A DNA stretch of 64,000 bases from Xenophilus sp. E41 (GTDB lineage: Bacteria; Pseudomonadota; Gammaproteobacteria; Burkholderiales; Burkholderiaceae_C). A program made the translations under genes and the position numbers. The notes below the pieces were generated by a model that saw nothing but the letters and a program-made list of their open reading frames with translations, was not told the origin of the DNA and did no database searches. The stretch covers positions 1 to 64,000 of the forward strand of contig NZ_QPIB01000039.1 in NCBI RefSeq assembly GCF_003671765.1. The letters are read 5' to 3'. Below are positions 32,606-60,180 of this stretch, piece by piece. Every line of letters begins with the position of its first letter. The stretch's first letter is position 1.

Positions 32606-33943
32606 ATGACCACCTCCACCCCCCCGTCCCGCAAGGTCTTCATCAAGACCTTCGGCTGCCAGATGAACGAGTACGACTCGGACAAGATGGCCGATCTGCT
32701 CGCCGCCGCCGAGGGCTACACGCCTACGCAGGACGTGGAGGAAGCCGACCTGATCCTCTTCAACACCTGCTCGGTGCGCGAGAAGGCACAGGAGAAGGTG
32801 TTCTCCGACCTGGGCCGCGTGCAGCACCTGAAGGCCAAGGGCGTGAAGATCGGCGTCGGCGGCTGCGTCGCCAGCCAGGAGGGCGACGCCATCATCCAGC
32901 GCGCGCCCTATGTCGACGTGGTGTTCGGCCCGCAGACGCTGCACCGCCTGCCGGAGATGCTGGCGCGCCGCGAGGCCGAGAAGCGCCCGCAGGTGGACAT
33001 CTCCTTCCCCGAGATCGAGAAGTTCGACCACCTGCCTCCCGCGCGCGTCGAGGGCGCGACGGCCTACGTGTCGATCATGGAAGGCTGCTCCAAGTACTGC
33101 AGCTATTGCGTGGTGCCCTACACCCGCGGCGAGGAGGTCAACCGCCCGCTGGACGACGTGCTGGTGGAGGTCGCGGGCCTGGCCGACCAGGGCGTGCGCG
33201 AGATCACGCTGCTGGGCCAGAACGTCAACGCGTACCGCGGCCGGATGGGCGACACGGCCGAGATTGCCGACTTCGCGCTGCTCATCGAGTACATCGCCGA
33301 GATCCCGGGCATCGAACGCATCCGCTACACGACCAGCCACCCGAACGAGTTCACGCCGCGGCTGATCGAGGCCTACGCCAAGGTGCCGCAGCTGGTGAGC
33401 CACCTGCATCTGCCCGTGCAGCACGGCAGCGACCGCATCCTGATGGCGATGAAGCGCGGCTACACGGCCATGGAATACAAGAGCACGATCCGCAAGCTGC
33501 GCGCCATCCGCCCGCAGCTCGCCCTGTCGAGCGACTTCATCGTCGGCTTCCCCGGCGAGACCGACGACGACTTCGCGCGGATGATGAAGCTGATCGAGGA
33601 CGTCGGCTTCGACGCCAGCTTCAGCTTCATCTTCAGCCCGCGTCCCGGCACCCCGGCGGCGCAGTTGCACGACGACACGCCGCACGAGGTCAAGCTGCGG
33701 CGCCTGCAGCACCTGCAGAAGACCATCGACGACAACGTCAGGCGTCTGTCCGACGCGCTGGTCGGCACCACGCAGCGCATCCTGGTCGAAGGGCCGTCGA
33801 AGAAGAACGCGGCCGAGATGATGGGCCGCACCGATTGCTTCCGCGTCGTCAACTTCGAGGCGCCTGCGCAGCTCGTCGGTCAGATGGTGGACGTGAAGAT
33901 CACCCGCTCGCTGTCGCACACGTTGCGGGGTGAAGTGGCATGA
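32606..33943 (+). CDS. miaB: tRNA-2-methylthio-N6-isopentenyladenosine synthase MiaB
   Basis: Radical-SAM methylthiotransferase that adds a methylthio group at C2 of i6A37 in tRNAs reading UNN codons. The 445-aa protein has the UPF0004 N-domain ([19 protein letters not shown], with later Cys in NTCSVREKA and GGCVASQ binding the auxiliary cluster), the radical-SAM motif CSKYCSYC near residue 158, and a C-terminal TRAM domain. Full length. It is preceded by repeat copy 4 and followed by a large hairpin repeat. Confidence 0.97.
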
Positions 33944-33951
33944 CATGCGGA

Positions 33952-34068
33952 CAGCCGAACGCGAAGGACGCCAAGGTTACGCGAAGGCCGCGAAAGAACT
34001 TCCTTCCAAGCTGTTTCATGCTTTTTTCGCGCTCTTTGCGAAACCTTCGCGTCCTTCGCGTCCGGCTG
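33952..34068. repeat. Large imperfect inverted repeat after miaB
   Basis: The left arm (33952-33999) and the right arm (34021-34068) pair over about 47 positions with few mismatches; both are built of short GCGAAGGA/C units (for example CGCGAAGGACGC in both arms once complemented). The loop is 21 bases. It fills most of the gap between miaB and the glrK gene. Repeats of this type are frequent after Comamonadaceae genes and may act as transcript-stabilising or terminating structures. Confidence 0.8.
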
Positions 34069-34106
34069 CCCGATTTCGCGGCCTTCGGTCAGGAGCTTCG
34101 CCGCTG

Positions 34107-35546
34107 ATGCCCACCCGTCACCGCGCGCGCGGCTCCTTCCAGCAACTGCTGCTCTTCGCGTTCCTGCTCATCACCGCGCTGCTGCTCGGCGTGGTGCTGC
34201 GCGCGGTGTCGCAGTACGACAAGCTGATCGTGCAGAGCCGCGACGCCGCACGCAGCGCGCTGCAGCTGTCGGGCGCGGCGCAGACGCTGGCCGAGCGCAG
34301 CGCGGCCATGGAACGCTCGGGCCGGCAGTCGCTGGTGCTCAACGACGCCGTGCTGCGCCGCCGCTTCAACGATGCGGCGCGCGATGCGCAGGCGGTGGTG
34401 CAGCGGCTGGTCGACAACGGGCTGCTGCCGCAATCGGCCGAGCAATGGCGCGCGCAGCTGGGCGTGATCGAGGGCCTGATGAGCGGCTCGCAGGACACCG
34501 CCCTGTCGCGCGAGGGCTCGATGGCGATCCAGTTCCGCGAGCTGGACACGCTCAACACGCAGATCGCGCAGCAGGCGCAGTTCCTGATCGAGACGCAGAA
34601 CAACGCCCTGGCCGAGCGGCTGGAGCGCGCGCGGCGGCGGCTGATGCAGCAGGTGATCGCGGCCAGCGGGCTGGCGATCGCGATGGCGCTGGCCTTCGGC
34701 ATCTGGCTGGCGCGGCCCTTCAAGCGGCTGGAACGCGCCATCCACGGGCTGGGCGAGAACCGGCTCGAGGATCCCATCGACATCCGCGGCCCCGCCGACG
34801 TGCGACGCGTGTCGCAGGAGCTGGACTGGCTGCGCCTGCGCCTGATGGAACTCGATGCCGACAAGGCGCGCTTCCTGCGGCACGTCTCGCATGAACTCAA
34901 GACCCCGCTGGCCGCATTGCGCGAGGGCGTGTCGCTGCTGGAGGATGGCGTGACCGGCGCGCTGACGCCCGCGCAGCGCGAGGTGGCGCAGATCCTGAAC
35001 CAGAACACGCTGGCGCTGCAGGGGCAGATCGAGGCGCTGCTGCGCTTCAACGCCGCCGCCTTCGAGGCCCGCCAGCTGAGCCGCCAGCGCACGCCCCTGC
35101 TGCCGCTGATCGAGCAGCAGATCGAGGCGCAGCGCCTGCAGTGGCAGGCGCAGGGCCTGACGGTGCGCGCCGAGGGCGAGCCGCTGACGGTGGTGGTGGA
35201 CCCGGTGAAGATCGGCACCGTGCTGGCCAACCTGCTGTCGAACGCCATCCGTTTCTCCGCGCGCGGCGGCACCATCCAGTTCACCGTGTCCAGCACCGTC
35301 GACCTGGCCATCATCGAGGTGGCCGACGCCGGACCGGGCATCGCCGCCGACGACCGCGACCGCATCTTCGAACCCTTCTTCCGCGGCGAGCGCCAGCCCG
35401 AACACGCCGTGAAAGGCACTGGCATCGGCCTGTCCATCGTGCAGGAGTACATTGCTGCCCATGGCGGACGGATCGAACTGCTGCCGAGCAGCGCGTCCGA
35501 TGGCCCCGGTGCACGTTTCCGCATCGAACTGCCGCGCTCCGCCTGA
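34107..35546 (+). CDS. glrK: Sensor histidine kinase GlrK (QseE-like)
   Basis: A 479-aa membrane sensor kinase. Two membrane segments (about residues 11-31 and 183-205) enclose a periplasmic helical region; then come a HAMP linker, the phosphoacceptor block FLRHVSHELKTPLAAL (His262) and an HATPase domain (NLLSNAIRFS, DAGPGI, GTGIGLSIV). The order kinase, small lipoprotein, sigma-54 activator that follows is the glrK-qseG-glrR arrangement of enterobacteria, which supports the name. The ATG at 34107 has an AGGAG site. In enterobacteria the kinase responds to envelope-related cues; the signal here is unknown. Confidence 0.88.
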   Translation: MPTRHRARGSFQQLLLFAFLLITALLLGVVLRAVSQYDKLIVQSRDAARSALQLSGAAQTLAERSAAMERSGRQSLVLNDAVLRRRFNDAARDAQAVVQRLVDNGLLPQSAEQWRAQLGVIEGLMSGSQDTALSREGSMAIQFRELDTLNTQIAQQAQFLIETQNNALAERLERARRRLMQQVIAASGLAIAMALAFGIWLARPFKRLERAIHGLGENRLEDPIDIRGPADVRRVSQELDWLRLRLMELDADKARFLRHVSHELKTPLAALREGVSLLEDGVTGALTPAQREVAQILNQNTLALQGQIEALLRFNAAAFEARQLSRQRTPLLPLIEQQIEAQRLQWQAQGLTVRAEGEPLTVVVDPVKIGTVLANLLSNAIRFSARGGTIQFTVSSTVDLAIIEVADAGPGIAADDRDRIFEPFFRGERQPEHAVKGTGIGLSIVQEYIAAHGGRIELLPSSASDGPGARFRIELPRSA

Positions 35547-35566: not shown

Positions 35567-36229
35567 ATGCTGCATCCGATCGCTCGCAGATCCTCCGCCG
35601 TGGCACTGGCCGTGCCGCTGCTGCTGGTGGGCTGCGCCACCTCCGCCCCGCCCGCACCGGCGCCTGCGCCTGCGCCCGCACCCGCGGCAGCACCGGCGCC
35701 GGCCCCGGCACCCGCCGCACCCCCGCCCATCCTCCCCGTCGAGGCGGAGCCGAGGGCGCCGGCGACACAGCTGGTGCCGCCCTCGCCCGGGCCCGTCGGC
35801 GCCATGCTGGCCTACGCGGACCGTGTCCGCGGGCTGTCCTCCAACGACCTTCAGGCCGAGATCAACCGCCTGGGCGAAACCGGCGACACGCCCGCGCTGC
35901 AGATGCAGCTCGGCCTGGCGTTGTCGCAGACGCGTTCGCCGCCGGACCTCGCGCGCGCGCTGGGCCTCATGCAACGCGTCGCGGCGAACAGCACGCCCGA
36001 TGGCCTGGCCCTGCAGCCGCTGGCCCGGCTGCTCGCCTCGCGCTTCCTGGAGCAGCGCCGCGTGGAGGACGACCGCGACCGCCAGGTGCAGCAGCTGCGC
36101 GACGCGCAGCGCCGCATCGACCAGCTCAACGACCGCATCGAGGCGCTGCGTGCCATCGAGCGCAGCTTCAGCCGCCCGGCGGCACCGGCGCCGGCGCCCG
36201 CACCGGCGCCCAACGGCGCCAAGCCCTGA
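35567..36229 (+). CDS. QseG-like outer membrane lipoprotein
   Basis: A 220-aa lipoprotein: signal peptide with lipobox LLVGC (Cys near residue 23), then a Pro-Ala low-complexity linker (APAPAP type) to about residue 57. The folded part (residues 75-190) has AEINRLGETGDTPALQMQLG and a C-terminal coiled coil (RDAQRRIDQLNDRIEALRAI). In enterobacteria QseG sits between glrK and glrR and stimulates the kinase; the same position here suggests the same role, though sequence similarity was not tested. It starts 20 nt after glrK and ends 11 nt before glrR. Confidence 0.78.
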   Translation: MLHPIARRSSAVALAVPLLLVGCATSAPPAPAPAPAPAPAAAPAPAPAPAAPPPILPVEAEPRAPATQLVPPSPGPVGAMLAYADRVRGLSSNDLQAEINRLGETGDTPALQMQLGLALSQTRSPPDLARALGLMQRVAANSTPDGLALQPLARLLASRFLEQRRVEDDRDRQVQQLRDAQRRIDQLNDRIEALRAIERSFSRPAAPAPAPAPAPNGAKP

Positions 36230-36240
36230 AAGACGAACGG

Positions 36241-37647
36241 ATGGCCGATTCGCCCGCAACGCCCGGCAACGGCGCCCGCATCCTGGTCGTCGATGACGAC
36301 GCCGACCTGCTGCGCCTGCTGTCGCTGCGCCTGCAGGGCGCGGGCTACCAGGTCACGGCCGTGACCTCGGCCGAGTCGGCCCTGACGCAGCTGGAGATCG
36401 AGCACCCGCGCCTCGTGCTCAGCGACGTCAAGCTGCCCGGGCGCGACGGGCTGCAGCTCTTCGACGAGATCCGCAAGCGCCATCCGACGCTGCCCGTCAT
36501 CCTGCTCACCGCGCACGGCACGATCCCCGACGCGGTGGAGGCCACGGCGCGCGGCGTGTTCACTTACCTGACCAAGCCCTACGAGGCGCGCGAGCTGCTC
36601 GACAAGATCCAGCAGGCGCTGGCCCTGGGCGCGCCCGCGGCCACGCCGGCCGCGGCAGGCGACGAGAGCTGGCGCAGCGAGATCGTCAGCCGGTCCAGCC
36701 GCATGGCGGAGGTGCTCGCGGAGGCCCGCATGGTGGCCAAGACCGACGCCAGCGTGCTGCTGCGCGGCGACTCCGGTGCCGGCAAGGAGGTGCTCGCGCG
36801 CGCCATCCACAAGGCCAGCGACCGCGCGAGGAAGCCCTTCGTGGCCGTCAACTGCGGCGCCATTCCCGAGGCGCTGCTCGAGTCCGAGCTGTTCGGCCAC
36901 GTCAAGGGCGCCTTCACCGACGCGCACGCCAACCACAAGGGCCTGTTCCAGCAGGCCGACGGCGGCACGCTGCTGCTCGACGAGATCGGCGACATGCCCC
37001 CTGCCCTGCAGGTCAAGCTGCTGCGCGTGCTGCAAGAGCGGGCCGTGCGGCCGGTGGGGTCGACGCAGACCTTCCCGGTCGACGTGCGCATCATCTCGGC
37101 GACGCACCGCGACCTGGACCTGGCGATGGAGAGCGGCCAGTTCCGCGAGGACCTGTACTACCGGCTGAACGTCGTCACCCTCACGCTGCCGACGCTGGCC
37201 CAACGTCGCGAGGACATCCCGCTGCTGGCCAACCACTTCCTGCAGCGGCTGGCCGGCAAGTACGGCAAGCGGCTGTCGGGCTTCGCCCCCGAAGCGCTGA
37301 AGGCGCTGACCACGGCGCCGTGGCCGGGCAACGTGCGACAGCTGTTCAACGTGGTCGAGCAGGTGTGCGCGCTGTCGAGCTCGCCGCTGATTCCGCTGGC
37401 GCTGGTCCAGCGGGCCCTGCGGGTGCCGTCCGTCGAAGTGCAGACCTATGCCGAAGCCAAGCAGCGCTTCGAGCGGGAGTACCTGGTCGGCCTGTTGAAA
37501 CTCACTGACGGCAACGTCGCCGATGCCGCGCGGCTGGCGGACCGCAACCGCACGGAGTTCTACCGCCTGCTGCAGAAGCATGAACTCACTCCAGGCCACT
37601 TCAAGGCCGAGGGTGTCGCCGGGCCAAGCGATGCTGTCGCCGAGTAG
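36241..37647 (+). CDS. glrR: Sigma-54-dependent response regulator GlrR (QseF-like)
   Basis: A 468-aa NtrC-type activator: receiver domain (phosphoacceptor Asp62 in VLSDVKLPG, Lys in YLTKPYEA), AAA+ domain (Walker A GDSGAGKE near residue 178, Walker B GGTLLLDEIGDMP, Arg fingers) and a C-terminal Fis-type helix-turn-helix. The sigma-54 contact loop reads GAFTDA at residues 223-228 instead of the consensus GAFTGA. Together with the kinase and lipoprotein it forms a GlrK/GlrR set. Its predicted targets are the two TGTC-N10-GACA sites beginning at its own stop codon; the first overlaps the last codons of this gene. Confidence 0.9.
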   Translation: MADSPATPGNGARILVVDDDADLLRLLSLRLQGAGYQVTAVTSAESALTQLEIEHPRLVLSDVKLPGRDGLQLFDEIRKRHPTLPVILLTAHGTIPDAVEATARGVFTYLTKPYEARELLDKIQQALALGAPAATPAAAGDESWRSEIVSRSSRMAEVLAEARMVAKTDASVLLRGDSGAGKEVLARAIHKASDRARKPFVAVNCGAIPEALLESELFGHVKGAFTDAHANHKGLFQQADGGTLLLDEIGDMPPALQVKLLRVLQERAVRPVGSTQTFPVDVRIISATHRDLDLAMESGQFREDLYYRLNVVTLTLPTLAQRREDIPLLANHFLQRLAGKYGKRLSGFAPEALKALTTAPWPGNVRQLFNVVEQVCALSSSPLIPLALVQRALRVPSVEVQTYAEAKQRFEREYLVGLLKLTDGNVADAARLADRNRTEFYRLLQKHELTPGHFKAEGVAGPSDAVAE

Positions 37648-37652
37648 CGACA
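37635..37652. promoter_or_regulatory. GlrR-type activator site 1 (TGTC-N10-GACA)
   Basis: TGTC at 37635-37638 and GACA at 37649-37652, separated by exactly 10 bases, a perfect match to the dyad known for enterobacterial GlrR. It overlaps the glrR stop codon and lies about 160 bp upstream of the sigma-54 promoter, a normal distance for an enhancer. Confidence 0.8.
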
Positions 37653-37656
37653 GGCC

Positions 37657-37669
37657 TAAGTCCTTGATT
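37657..37669 (-). promoter_or_regulatory. IHF consensus site 1
   Basis: On the minus strand AATCAAGGACTTA matches WATCAANNNNTTR without mismatch. It lies between the two activator sites. The surrounding 16 bp recurs almost exactly at 37780-37795 (15 of 16 identical). Confidence 0.65.
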
Positions 37670-37701
37670 TCATTGGATTTCGCTGTGGCAAGTGCCGGCC
37701 T

Positions 37702-37719
37702 TGTCGGGCTTTGGCGACA
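37702..37719. promoter_or_regulatory. GlrR-type activator site 2 (TGTC-N10-GACA)
   Basis: TGTC at 37702-37705 and GACA at 37716-37719, again with exactly 10 bases between, 67 bp downstream of site 1 and 95 bp upstream of the sigma-54 promoter's -24 element. Confidence 0.8.
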
Positions 37720-37781
37720 AAAACGGGGGCTTTGAGGCCTTTCGGCCGAAAACGCCGCCAAAAACGCCTCAAAAATCGACC

Positions 37782-37794
37782 TAAGTCGTTGATT
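37782..37794 (-). promoter_or_regulatory. IHF consensus site 2
   Basis: On the minus strand AATCAACGACTTA matches WATCAANNNNTTR exactly. It lies between the activator sites and the promoter, where an IHF bend would bring the bound activator to sigma-54 polymerase. Confidence 0.7.
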
Positions 37795-37813
37795 TAAAAA
37801 TAAAAAACCGCTC

Positions 37814-37829
37814 TGGCACAGGCTTTGCA
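37814..37829 (+). promoter_or_regulatory. Sigma-54 (-24/-12) promoter
   Basis: TGGCAC, five bases, TTGCA: every consensus base is present and GG and GC are separated by the required 10 bases. Transcription should begin near 37840. Downstream are a 66-codon ORF at 37841 and opgH at 38056. Confidence 0.85.
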
Positions 37830-37840
37830 GCCTTGTGGGC

Positions 37841-38041
37841 ATGAGCACTCTCACCAGCCCCTCTTTCGCACTGCGTCCGCAGCGCGATGGCGCGCGTCAG
37901 AAACACATTCACGCCGCGCGGCCCCGCGCCGCCGGCCAGGCCCTCGGCGCGCTGAACGCGGCCGGCGCCACCGCCACGGACAGCGTGTTCAAGCGCTTCC
38001 CGTCCATCGGCGACACCCCCTCGTCCAAGCAACGTTGGTAA
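37841..38041 (+). CDS. Small protein of unknown function upstream of opgH
   Basis: A 66-aa frame with codon use like its neighbours (third positions mostly G or C). The sequence begins MSTLTSPSFALRPQRDG and ends FKRFPSIGDTPSSKQRW; it is basic, without a membrane segment or signal peptide, and is not recognised. Its ATG lies at or one base after the expected sigma-54 transcription start, so if translated from that message it would be leaderless; a GTG six bases earlier is the alternative for a longer transcript. opgH follows after 14 bases with its own ribosome site. It could also simply be part of a 216-nt opgH leader. Confidence 0.5.
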   Translation: MSTLTSPSFALRPQRDGARQKHIHAARPRAAGQALGALNAAGATATDSVFKRFPSIGDTPSSKQRW

Positions 38042-38055
38042 GAAGGACTGCGTCC

Positions 38056-40065
38056 ATGAAGCCGAACGAATTCTCTCAACTGAAGGTCCTGACCCCGGCC
38101 GACTTCTCGCACCGCAGCCCGGTGCGCGAGGAGCGTCACCCGAACTCGGTCACGGCCCCGCCCGTCAACCGCGGCTCGATGACGCCGCGCCCGTGGCGCG
38201 GCTTCTGGAACAGCATCGGCACCGCCCTGCTGCTCAAGCTCGGCGCAGGCGGCCGCCAGGCGGCGCCCGAAGTCGCCCAGTTTCCGAAGCAGCCCTGGGA
38301 GCGCGCCGCCAGGCAGCGTCGTGCGGTCTTCATGCTGCTGGCCGTGCTCAGCACGGTGATGGCCTCGACGCTCTTCGCGCAGGTGCAGCCCGACTACGAC
38401 AACCTGTGGCTCGAGTACGGCCAGATCGGCCTGTACGGCCTGCTGTCGGGCTGGGTCGTGACCGGCTTCGTCACGGCGCTGATGGGCTTCTACGTCTCCG
38501 TTCGCGGCGACAAGCATGCGCTCTCGGCCAAGCAGGTCGCGAACCACCCGATGAACCCCGAGGCACGCACGGCGATCATCATGCCGATCTGCAACGAGGA
38601 CGTCGCCACGGTGTTCGCCGGCCTGCGCGCCACCTGCGAATCCGTCGCCAACACCGGCCACGCGCAGCAGTTCGACGTGTTCGTGCTGTCGGACAGCTAC
38701 AACCCCGAGATCGCCAAGGCCGAACGTGCCGCGTGGGAAGAGCTGCGCGCCGCGCTGGCCGAGCATCCGAACCAGCCGCAGGTCGAGGTCTACTACCGCC
38801 TGCGCACCCGCCGCACGCACCGCAAGGCCGGCAACGTGGCCGACTTCTGCCGCCGCTGGGGCAAGGACTACCGCTACATGGTCGTGCTCGACGCCGACTC
38901 GGTCATGAGCGGCGACTGCCTGACGTCGATGGTCAAGCTGATGGAAGCCAACCCGAGCGCCGGCATCATCCAGACCGCCACGCAGGCCATCGGCCATGTG
39001 ACGCTGCACGCCCGCGCCCAGCAGTTCGCCAGCCGCGTGACCGGCCGCCTGTTCACCCTGGGCATGCAGTTCTGGCAGCTCGGCGAGTCGCACTACTGGG
39101 GCCACAACGCGATCATCCGCGTCGAGCCCTTCATGAAGCATTGCGCGCTGGCCCCGATCAAGGGCACCGGCGGCATGTCGGGCGGCATCATGTCGCACGA
39201 CTTCGTCGAGGCCGCGCTGATGCGCCGTGCCGGCTATCACGTGTGGCTGGTGTCCGACCTGGTCGGCAGCTACGAGCAGCAACCGCCGGACCTGCTGGCC
39301 GAACTGCAGCGTGACCGCCGCTGGTGCCAGGGCAACCTGCAGAACGCCCGTCTGATGGCCGAACCCGGCATTGCCCCGGTCCACCGCGCGATGTTCGTCA
39401 CCGGCACCATGGCCTACGTGTCGGCGCCTCTGTGGCTGGCCTTCCTGACCCTGGGCACCGCCCTGTGGCTGACCGGCTCGAGCCTGGTCGAGCACTGGAT
39501 GGTGATGCCGATGGAACTGGCCGGCCTGTGGCTGTGGACGCTGTGCCTGCTCTTCCTGCCCCGCATCCTGGGCATCACGGCCGTGCTGATGCGCGGCGAG
39601 CAGAAGCAGTACGGCGGCGTGGCCAGCCTGCTCAAGAGCGCCGTGCTCGAGAGCGCGATGGCGATCGTCCAGGCCCCCGTGCGCATGCTGGCCCACTCGC
39701 TGTTCGTGGTCGTGGCTCTGACCGGCATCAAGCTGGACTGGAAGTCGCCCCCGCGGGAAGCCGCCGCCGTGCCGTGGCGCGAAGCCGCCGCCCGCCTGCT
39801 GCCGATGAGCGGCATCGTGGCGGCCCTGGGTGTGGCCGTGGCCCTCATCGACGCCAGCGCCCTGGTGTGGCTGATGCCCGTCGCCCTGCCGCTGCTGCTG
39901 GCCATCCCGATGGCCGTCGTGACCAGCCAGATCGCCCTCGGTACCAGCATGCGCGAAGCGAACTTCCTGCTGATTCCGGAAGAGTCGCGTTCGCCGGCCG
40001 TGCTGCGCCGCGCCTGGATGCACGCCGATCGCCTGGCCCAGCCGAAGTCGCTGCTGGCCAGCTGA
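38056..40065 (+). CDS. opgH: Osmoregulated periplasmic glucan glucosyltransferase OpgH (MdoH)
   Basis: Inner-membrane glycosyltransferase family 2 enzyme that builds the beta-1,2-linked glucan backbone of osmoregulated periplasmic glucans from UDP-glucose. The 669-aa protein has two N-terminal membrane segments (about residues 90-115 and 125-150), the GT2 catalytic region (IIMPICNED, VLDADSVMSG, and QRDRRWCQGN supplying the QxxRW motif) and several membrane segments from about residue 440. Size fits the short-to-medium OpgH class. Its usual partner opgG is not adjacent. AGAAGGA precedes the start. The upstream sigma-54 promoter with GlrR and IHF sites implies envelope-stress control. Confidence 0.94.
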   Translation: MKPNEFSQLKVLTPADFSHRSPVREERHPNSVTAPPVNRGSMTPRPWRGFWNSIGTALLLKLGAGGRQAAPEVAQFPKQPWERAARQRRAVFMLLAVLSTVMASTLFAQVQPDYDNLWLEYGQIGLYGLLSGWVVTGFVTALMGFYVSVRGDKHALSAKQVANHPMNPEARTAIIMPICNEDVATVFAGLRATCESVANTGHAQQFDVFVLSDSYNPEIAKAERAAWEELRAALAEHPNQPQVEVYYRLRTRRTHRKAGNVADFCRRWGKDYRYMVVLDADSVMSGDCLTSMVKLMEANPSAGIIQTATQAIGHVTLHARAQQFASRVTGRLFTLGMQFWQLGESHYWGHNAIIRVEPFMKHCALAPIKGTGGMSGGIMSHDFVEAALMRRAGYHVWLVSDLVGSYEQQPPDLLAELQRDRRWCQGNLQNARLMAEPGIAPVHRAMFVTGTMAYVSAPLWLAFLTLGTALWLTGSSLVEHWMVMPMELAGLWLWTLCLLFLPRILGITAVLMRGEQKQYGGVASLLKSAVLESAMAIVQAPVRMLAHSLFVVVALTGIKLDWKSPPREAAAVPWREAAARLLPMSGIVAALGVAVALIDASALVWLMPVALPLLLAIPMAVVTSQIALGTSMREANFLLIPEESRSPAVLRRAWMHADRLAQPKSLLAS

Positions 40066-60099: not shown

Positions 60100-60180
60100 C
60101 ACCGCGGGGACAGCGGGTGAGCGTGGTTGCATGGAAATCCGAGCCTCACGCCTGACGGCGCTGCAACGCTCCTCGGAAGG
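60100..60180 (-). promoter_or_regulatory. SAH riboswitch in the ahcY leader
   Basis: Minus-strand core (60176-60139) reads CCGAGGAGCGTTGCAGC, then a GCC...GGC arm, and closes with GAGGCTCGG. This is the SAH riboswitch layout: first stem CCGAG/CTCGG, conserved GGAGCGTTGC loop. Downstream (60122-60097) CTCACC...GGTGAG forms a further hairpin before the ribosome site. Binding of SAH should raise expression of ahcY and the genes behind it. Confidence 0.88.

Follow-up and report, generated by a model that had tools for sequence, protein, structure and literature searches.

A GlrR/IHF/sigma-54 promoter conserved behind glrR very likely controls the periplasmic glucan genes opgG and opgH

Which genes are served by the dense array of regulatory sites separating glrR from opgH in Xenophilus sp. 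E41? The array is found in a stretch of 64,000 nucleotides, hereafter the window (contig 45, bases 10038-74037 of a 5.84 Mb genome). A preliminary description, made from the letters of the window, had listed two perfect TGTC-N10-GACA dyads, two perfect IHF sites and a perfect TGGCAC-N5-TTGCA promoter, with a small ORF and opgH as first downstream genes, and had proposed that the GlrK/GlrR system controls opgH. Dyads and promoter are present to the base, both IHF sites are exact, and the two genes follow as reported (Table 1). The IHF sites read WATCAANNNNTTR on the complementary strand, and were scored against the IHF consensus. Relative to the start of the -24 element, the dyads are located at -179 and -112, the IHF sites at -157 and -32. 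Two details can be added to the earlier picture: the stop codon of glrR (37645-37647) falls inside dyad 1, and the ATG of the small ORF is found at the expected transcription start.

Table 1. Position of genes and predicted regulatory sites in the glrK-opgH region of the window.
Feature	Position	Strand	Remarks
glrK-like sensor kinase ORF	33930..35546	+	HisKA and HATPase_c domains; 34% identity to E. coli GlrK over 419 aligned positions
Lipoprotein gene in the qseG/yfhG position	35567..36229	+	lipobox LLLVGC; glrK before and glrR after it, an order shared with E. coli
glrR (qseF)-like sigma-54 activator gene	36241..37647	+	57% identity to E. coli GlrR over 444 positions, including the DNA-binding C-terminal end
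GlrR dyad 1, TGTCGCCGAGTAGCGACA	37635..37652	+	TGTC-N10-GACA; at most one mismatch in 78/79 loci
IHF site 1	37657..37669	-	at most one mismatch in 78/79 loci
GlrR dyad 2, TGTCGGGCTTTGGCGACA	37702..37719	+	at most one mismatch in 79/79 loci
IHF site 2	37782..37794	-	at most one mismatch in 74/79 loci, two in the other five
Sigma-54 promoter, TGGCAC-N5-TTGCA	37814..37829	+	at most one mismatch to TGGCAY-N5-TTGCM in 79/79 loci, none in the window
Predicted transcription start	37841	+	A of the small-ORF ATG; 27 bases past the start of the -24 element, as the annotated glmY 5' end
Small ORF, 66 codons and stop, predicted leaderless	37841..38041	+	pN below pS; no Pfam or NCBIfam family match
opgH (mdoH) glucosyltransferase gene	38056..40065	+	NCBIfam MdoH NF003960, 1254.3 bits, above the cut-off of 829

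The kinase, lipoprotein and regulator genes retain the order of the glrK-qseG-glrR operon. The lipoprotein is likened to QseG by position and lipobox only, because no family matched it convincingly and its comparison with E. coli QseG gave nothing significant. The start of the kinase ORF is provisional, and position 33966 was used in the searches. The regulator features Response_reg and Sigma54_activat domains. Its best NCBIfam model is GlrR (NF011695), which scores 609.9 bits, about 197 bits above NtrC; since the equivalog cut-off is 763, the protein is denoted here as GlrR-like, and not as a formal GlrR equivalog. The genome hosts one rpoN gene. The single MdoG-domain gene detected in it lies on a contig other than that of opgH (L097, G000:C22:260408-261868), and no GlrR-type promoter was found there in a stretch of 4.5 kb. 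A plasmid origin of the window was considered and discarded, as one plasmid match only was found, to part of glrR. An SAH riboswitch (60112-60180, minus strand; Rfam RF01057, 52.3 bits) is the sole Rfam match in the window at gathering thresholds.

Relatives were collected by searching with the opgH protein of the window and retaining the best 80 loci of a longer list; Comamonadaceae bacterium ALPHA2B and Xenophilus aerolatus are the best named matches among those listed. Two loci, L042 and L073, had no glrR on their piece and were dropped, so that 78 loci and the window, 79 in all, were compared. Alignment of the glrR-opgH gap, a comparison suggested in the preliminary description, revealed all five sites, at near-fixed spacing, in 79/79 pieces. 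Few sites carry two mismatches: dyad 1 in L078, IHF site 1 in L055, and IHF site 2 in L003, L005, L014, L020 and L030. In L004, L006 and L051 the best-scored dyad 1 is a neighbouring site with one mismatch, and the site at the usual distance has likewise one mismatch. Across the 79 loci IHF site 2 is located 31-32 bp, dyad 2 110-122 bp and dyad 1 175-189 bp before the -24 element. In an alignment of 40 of the 79 loci (A1), invariant columns correspond almost all to dyad, IHF and -24/-12 positions and to a CATG motif, while the spacers vary. The five-site array is a phylogenetic footprint.

Taken singly, the dyad and the sigma-54 motif are present elsewhere in the genome, as would be expected if their association were fortuitous. 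TGTC-N10-GACA is found at 56 places in 5.84 Mb (42 for the reversed-pattern control), and here twice within 85 bp; TGGCAY-N5-TTGCW is found at 16 places, both strands summed (2 for the control). Among these 16 strict sigma-54 sites, each inspected for 350 bp upstream, the one described here is the sole case featuring two dyads and exact IHF sites. Of the others, L083 has one imperfect dyad, and L087 has imperfect IHF-like sites. A sigma-54 site accompanied by two dyads never appeared in 200 first-order Markov sequences of 64 kb. A profile of the array region (R1), built from 40 sequences of close relatives, gave one full match in the genome, at 123.9 bits, the next being partial and scoring 18.3 bits. 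This gap in scores speaks against a chance association of the five motifs, and conservation in 79/79 loci had already refuted it; its probability is vanishingly small.

Further copies of the array were sought in the genome among the 16 strict sigma-54 sites and six other R1 matches, all partial and weak, and none was retained. Two single sites may be mentioned. L091 (G000:C32:529481-529496) is identical to the 16-base sigma-54 site of the window, and features neither dyads nor IHF sites in the 350 bp upstream. L100 (G000:C32:102896-102985, minus strand) is a sigma-54 site with one mismatch, has an exact IHF site 32 bp upstream and no dyads, and is perhaps a sigma-54 promoter served by a different activator.

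The co-occurrence of promoter, glrR and opgH was monitored in 150 genomes of the family, representing 141 genera, with cut-offs of E 1e-140 for glrR and E 1e-100 for opgH. The former is found in 38, the latter in 45, and both in 34 genomes. In 33 of these 34, opgH is located downstream of glrR, on the same strand and no more than 3.4 kb away. The interval holds an R1 match in 32/33; the one genome without it, G396, is 65% complete and has weak sites only. In the 34th genome, G412, opgGH are about 51 kb away from glrR. Here opgG is preceded by the R1 match, which is 1.6 kb upstream of opgH, and the 2.1 kb analysed behind glrR revealed no GlrR-type promoter. In G384 the array is located about 1.5 kb behind glrR, directly at opgG. 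Overall, the promoter is upstream of opgH in 33/34 genomes having both genes, and in 0/11 genomes having opgH and no detected glrR (Fisher p 1.2e-9, to be taken only as a guide because the genomes are interrelated and R1 was trained on close relatives). Of the 48 family genomes with any R1 match, 12 have no detected glrR; their matches are weak (E 2e-6 or worse), and none is near opgH. A second, more distant glrR-like gene is found in G426 (L145/L172) and in G337 (L158/L169), with 60% and 55% identity, respectively. A partial R1 match lies just behind the second gene of G426.

Beyond the family the genes following the promoter vary. Of 300 genomes sampled from the order, 84 gave an R1 match at E 0.001. 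Besides the window, 29 of the order loci were analysed (L106-L134): glrR is just upstream in 26, opgG or opgH are downstream in 9, and other genes in the remaining 20. Of the products of these other genes, five were scanned, some as partial sequences; three have a BON domain, one a glycine zipper, and one gave no match. In L111, L118 and L127 the GlrR-type promoter behind glrR is followed, after an ordinary leader, by a gene for a BON-domain protein with a signal peptide-like start. Judged from these loci, the place of the promoter behind glrR tends to be kept and its cargo to be exchanged; several of the encoded proteins resemble envelope proteins. Since quite different genes often follow the promoter in the order, opgGH appear to be one of several GlrR outputs, and the proposal of opgH as the GlrR target, correct in that the promoter precedes opg genes, needs to be widened accordingly. 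Found before opgGH, BON-domain proteins or other genes in different families, the promoter clearly exemplifies a regulator-promoter unit that is conserved while its cargo varies.

The constant position behind glrR (26/29 order loci), whatever gene comes next, could also be taken to mean that the array serves glrR itself, or is a positional remnant, opgGH being driven by other promoters. The array, however, points away from glrR. In G412 it accompanies opgGH and is not seen behind glrR, and in G384 it is found directly at opgG; moreover, the 11 opgH genomes with no detected glrR have no array at opgH. An array devoted to glrR, or held there as a remnant, is thus extremely unlikely, and a promoter directed at the downstream genes is the preferred reading.

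In the lineage of the window the first of these genes is the small ORF. ORFs of 66-70 codons are found at this position in 45/79 loci, and their consensus is close to MTALTSPSFALRPQRDGLRQKQFS...DCVFKRFPAIGDTPS. Besides the window, they are hosted by Variovorax, Xenophilus, Pseudacidovorax, a Comamonadaceae bacterium (L001) and a Gammaproteobacteria bacterium (L037). When the 45 sequences, window included, were compared, pN was lower than pS in 990/990 pairs (means 0.206 vs 0.398; median dN/dS 0.39). In the other two frames pN is slightly higher than pS (0.260 vs 0.236 and 0.270 vs 0.203). Judged from this substitution pattern, the small ORF is a real gene, encoding a lineage-restricted protein of about 67 residues which occupies the place held by opgG in relatives. 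From the N-terminal sequences, a decayed opgG start was considered as a possible origin of the ORF. In the window opgH starts 14 bases after the stop codon of the small ORF and is preceded by a GAAGGA motif. The small-ORF stop is within 16 bases of the presumed opgH ATG; in L009 and L029 the nearer ATG was taken, which may not be that of opgH. In many Variovorax loci no motif resembling GAAGGA was seen before opgH in the stretch inspected, which suggests that in them the translation of opgH is coupled to that of the small ORF.

A search for the small ORF in the 150 family genomes gave 20 matches at E 0.01. Four are full-length (G000, G368, G415, G363), and all are located at this promoter; the remaining matches, 16 in number, cover only part of the ORF, score weakly (E 1e-4 to 0.01) and were regarded as fortuitous. 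In G363 (L148), a 92%-complete genome of 2.5 Mb, glrR and the promoter are retained and the small ORF is intact. No opgH was matched at E 1e-100 in this incomplete assembly, and none in about 1.3 kb downstream of the small ORF. The small protein may therefore act independently of opgH; alternatively, opgH may be missing from the assembly.

The same kind of array drives the sRNA gene glmY in E. coli, and in the window as many as 215 bases separate the predicted transcription start from opgH. The main product of the promoter might thus be a small regulatory RNA equivalent to GlmY, with incidental read-through into the small ORF and opgH. Yet the segment encodes a conserved protein, as indicated by pN below pS in all pairs and by the slight excess of pN in the shifted frames. 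In relatives opgG or opgH begins directly at the same position, and Rfam at gathering thresholds gave no RNA family at the locus. A promoter devoted to an sRNA is very unlikely, and one making messages for proteins is preferred.

The position at which these coding sequences begin is nearly invariant in the loci compared. Counted from the start of the -24 element, an ATG is found in 79/79 loci, at offset 27 in 72 and at offset 28 in 7. This fixed ATG opens opgG in 26 loci, opgH in 8 (six of which have an N-terminal extension) and the small ORF in 45. In the family an ATG at offsets 26-29 opens opgG, opgH or the small ORF in 23/34 genomes. In two more, G171 and G440, the ATG at the offset opens a short frame, and only a GTG is in the opgH frame; nine of the 34 have no opg or small-ORF start codon at offsets 26-29. 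Outside the family an ATG at 27-28 is found in 4/6 opg loci. In contrast, at offsets 26-29 none of 20 GlrR-type promoters found before other genes in the order sample has ATG, GTG or TTG. If G171 and G440, which are doubtful, are scored as negative, a start codon is present at the offset in 27/40 opg loci vs 0/20 others (Fisher p 1.5e-7).

Since the fixed ATG sits where the 5' end of glmY lies, messages should begin at the AUG or within about one base of it. To judge from these positions, messages made from the array promoter are probably leaderless, both in their predicted start and in their translation. The case looks strong for the clade, and is not universal, because nine of 34 family genomes lack the start codon and two more have GTG only. 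Sigma-54 promoters can differ by one or two bases in the spacing between -12 and +1, and a leader of 1-2 bases is therefore possible. One may also suppose that the promoter is real and driven by GlrR, but that translation starts after a short leader or at an internal codon, the fixed ATG being part of the initially transcribed sequence. Promoter constraint could by itself explain the invariant CATG of A1, and nine family genomes do without a start codon at the offset. Furthermore, 12/26 opgG loci have some other in-frame ATG, GTG or TTG no further downstream than the beginning of the hydrophobic core. None of these alternative starts, however, is accompanied by a Shine-Dalgarno-like motif of the fixed list used, and the other 14/26 opgG loci have no further in-frame start before the signal-peptide core. 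The missing start codons at the 20 promoters preceding other genes are likewise at odds with a constraint imposed by the promoter. A short leader or an internal start is accordingly rather unlikely, and leaderless messages remain the favoured reading. The fixed start codon makes for a definite and cheap prediction, sigma-54 messages beginning at AUG.

Conservation, co-occurrence with glrR and near-superposition on glmY make it very likely that opgG-opgH are under GlrR/IHF/sigma-54 control. We infer that the stretch between glrR and opgH would be the upstream activating region and promoter of an osmoregulated-periplasmic-glucan operon. Phosphorylated GlrR, encoded just upstream, would bind the two dyads; IHF would bend the DNA at its two sites, and GlrR would open the RNA polymerase-sigma-54 complex bound at 37814-37829. 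Transcription would begin at position 37841 or within about one base of it, and the message, starting with AUG, would be translated leaderless. In the lineage of the window the first cistron would be that of the 66-residue protein, followed by opgH; in relatives the same start codon would be that of opgG or opgH. The weak sites of G396, and the GlrR score below the equivalog cut-off, count against this control. The earlier proposal of GlrR control over opgH holds insofar as the array is conserved (79/79) and tracks glrR and opgH (33/34 vs 0/11); in many relatives, though, the unit controlled is opgG-opgH and not opgH alone.

We cautiously favour a wider reading, in which the promoter is locked to the start codon. 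Glucan messages made through GlrR and sigma-54 would be leaderless, and the envelope state would thereby set not only transcription but also the way in which translation is initiated. A new protein of about 67 residues would, in one lineage, replace opgG as first cistron and be itself a GlrR output, as G363, which keeps promoter and small ORF with opgH undetected, may indicate. If glucan synthesis is a direct output, this would hint at an osmotic or envelope state as the signal sensed, and offer a clean system for seeking the signal of GlrK/GlrR. The preliminary description knew of no GlrR-opgH link in betaproteobacteria, and none was found in open-access full texts, nor in the titles and abstract openings of papers listed for related terms; the same texts gave no report of a leaderless opgG. 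Opg and glucan terms are absent from the accessible part of a comparative sigma-54 study which mentions QseF-like activators and glmY (PMC3162934). Promoters of this kind are known. Within the open-access literature searched, what appears to be new is the target, together with the small protein and the way in which promoter and start codon are locked.

The closest known structure is the glmY promoter of E. coli K-12. Relative to the start of its -24 element, dyads are located at -203, -170 and -107, an exact IHF-like site at -150 and one with a single mismatch at -31; the 5' end is annotated at +27. In both promoters an exact IHF site lies between paired TGTC-N10-GACA dyads, and a second IHF-like site is found at about -31; the 5' end, annotated in glmY and predicted in the window, is 27 bases after the start of this element in both. 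The third dyad, at -203, is found in glmY only, distances to the -24 element are 1-9 bp shorter in E. coli, the -12 part of glmY has one mismatch, and its second IHF site is imperfect and in the other orientation. An overlapping sigma-70 promoter is also present at glmY. The cargo differs, as the glmY array drives an sRNA gene upstream of glrK, while that of the window is located behind glrR and before protein genes. QseF (GlrR) and IHF activate glmY from sigma-54 via TGTN12ACA sites, according to the accessible part of one report (PMC6075780). As described there, rpoE P2 is an envelope-related QseF/GlrR target with similar upstream sites and a different target gene (PMC6075780).

The genes opgG and opgH are those of the opgGH (mdoGH) operon of E. 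coli. The region upstream of E. coli opgG, inspected for about 535 bp, features no sigma-54-like site (as many as 3 mismatches allowed, GG and GC kept), no dyad pair, and no dyad with fewer than two mismatches; one dyad-like site with two mismatches and one imperfect IHF-like site are found. As E. coli opgG is devoid of the array, the glucan target appears to differ between lineages. The direct GlrK/GlrR (QseE/QseF) targets named for E. coli K-12 in the accessible text are an sRNA and rpoE, and the stimulus is there called unknown (PMC6075780).

Messages with the transcript start at AUG, as predicted here, have been found in Sinorhizobium meliloti, in which 171 leaderless mRNAs were mapped (PMC3616915). 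In the accessible part of that study these mRNAs are tied neither to sigma-54 nor to one conserved promoter (PMC3616915). In the loci described here, the spacing between start codon and -24/-12 promoter is fixed from genus to genus.
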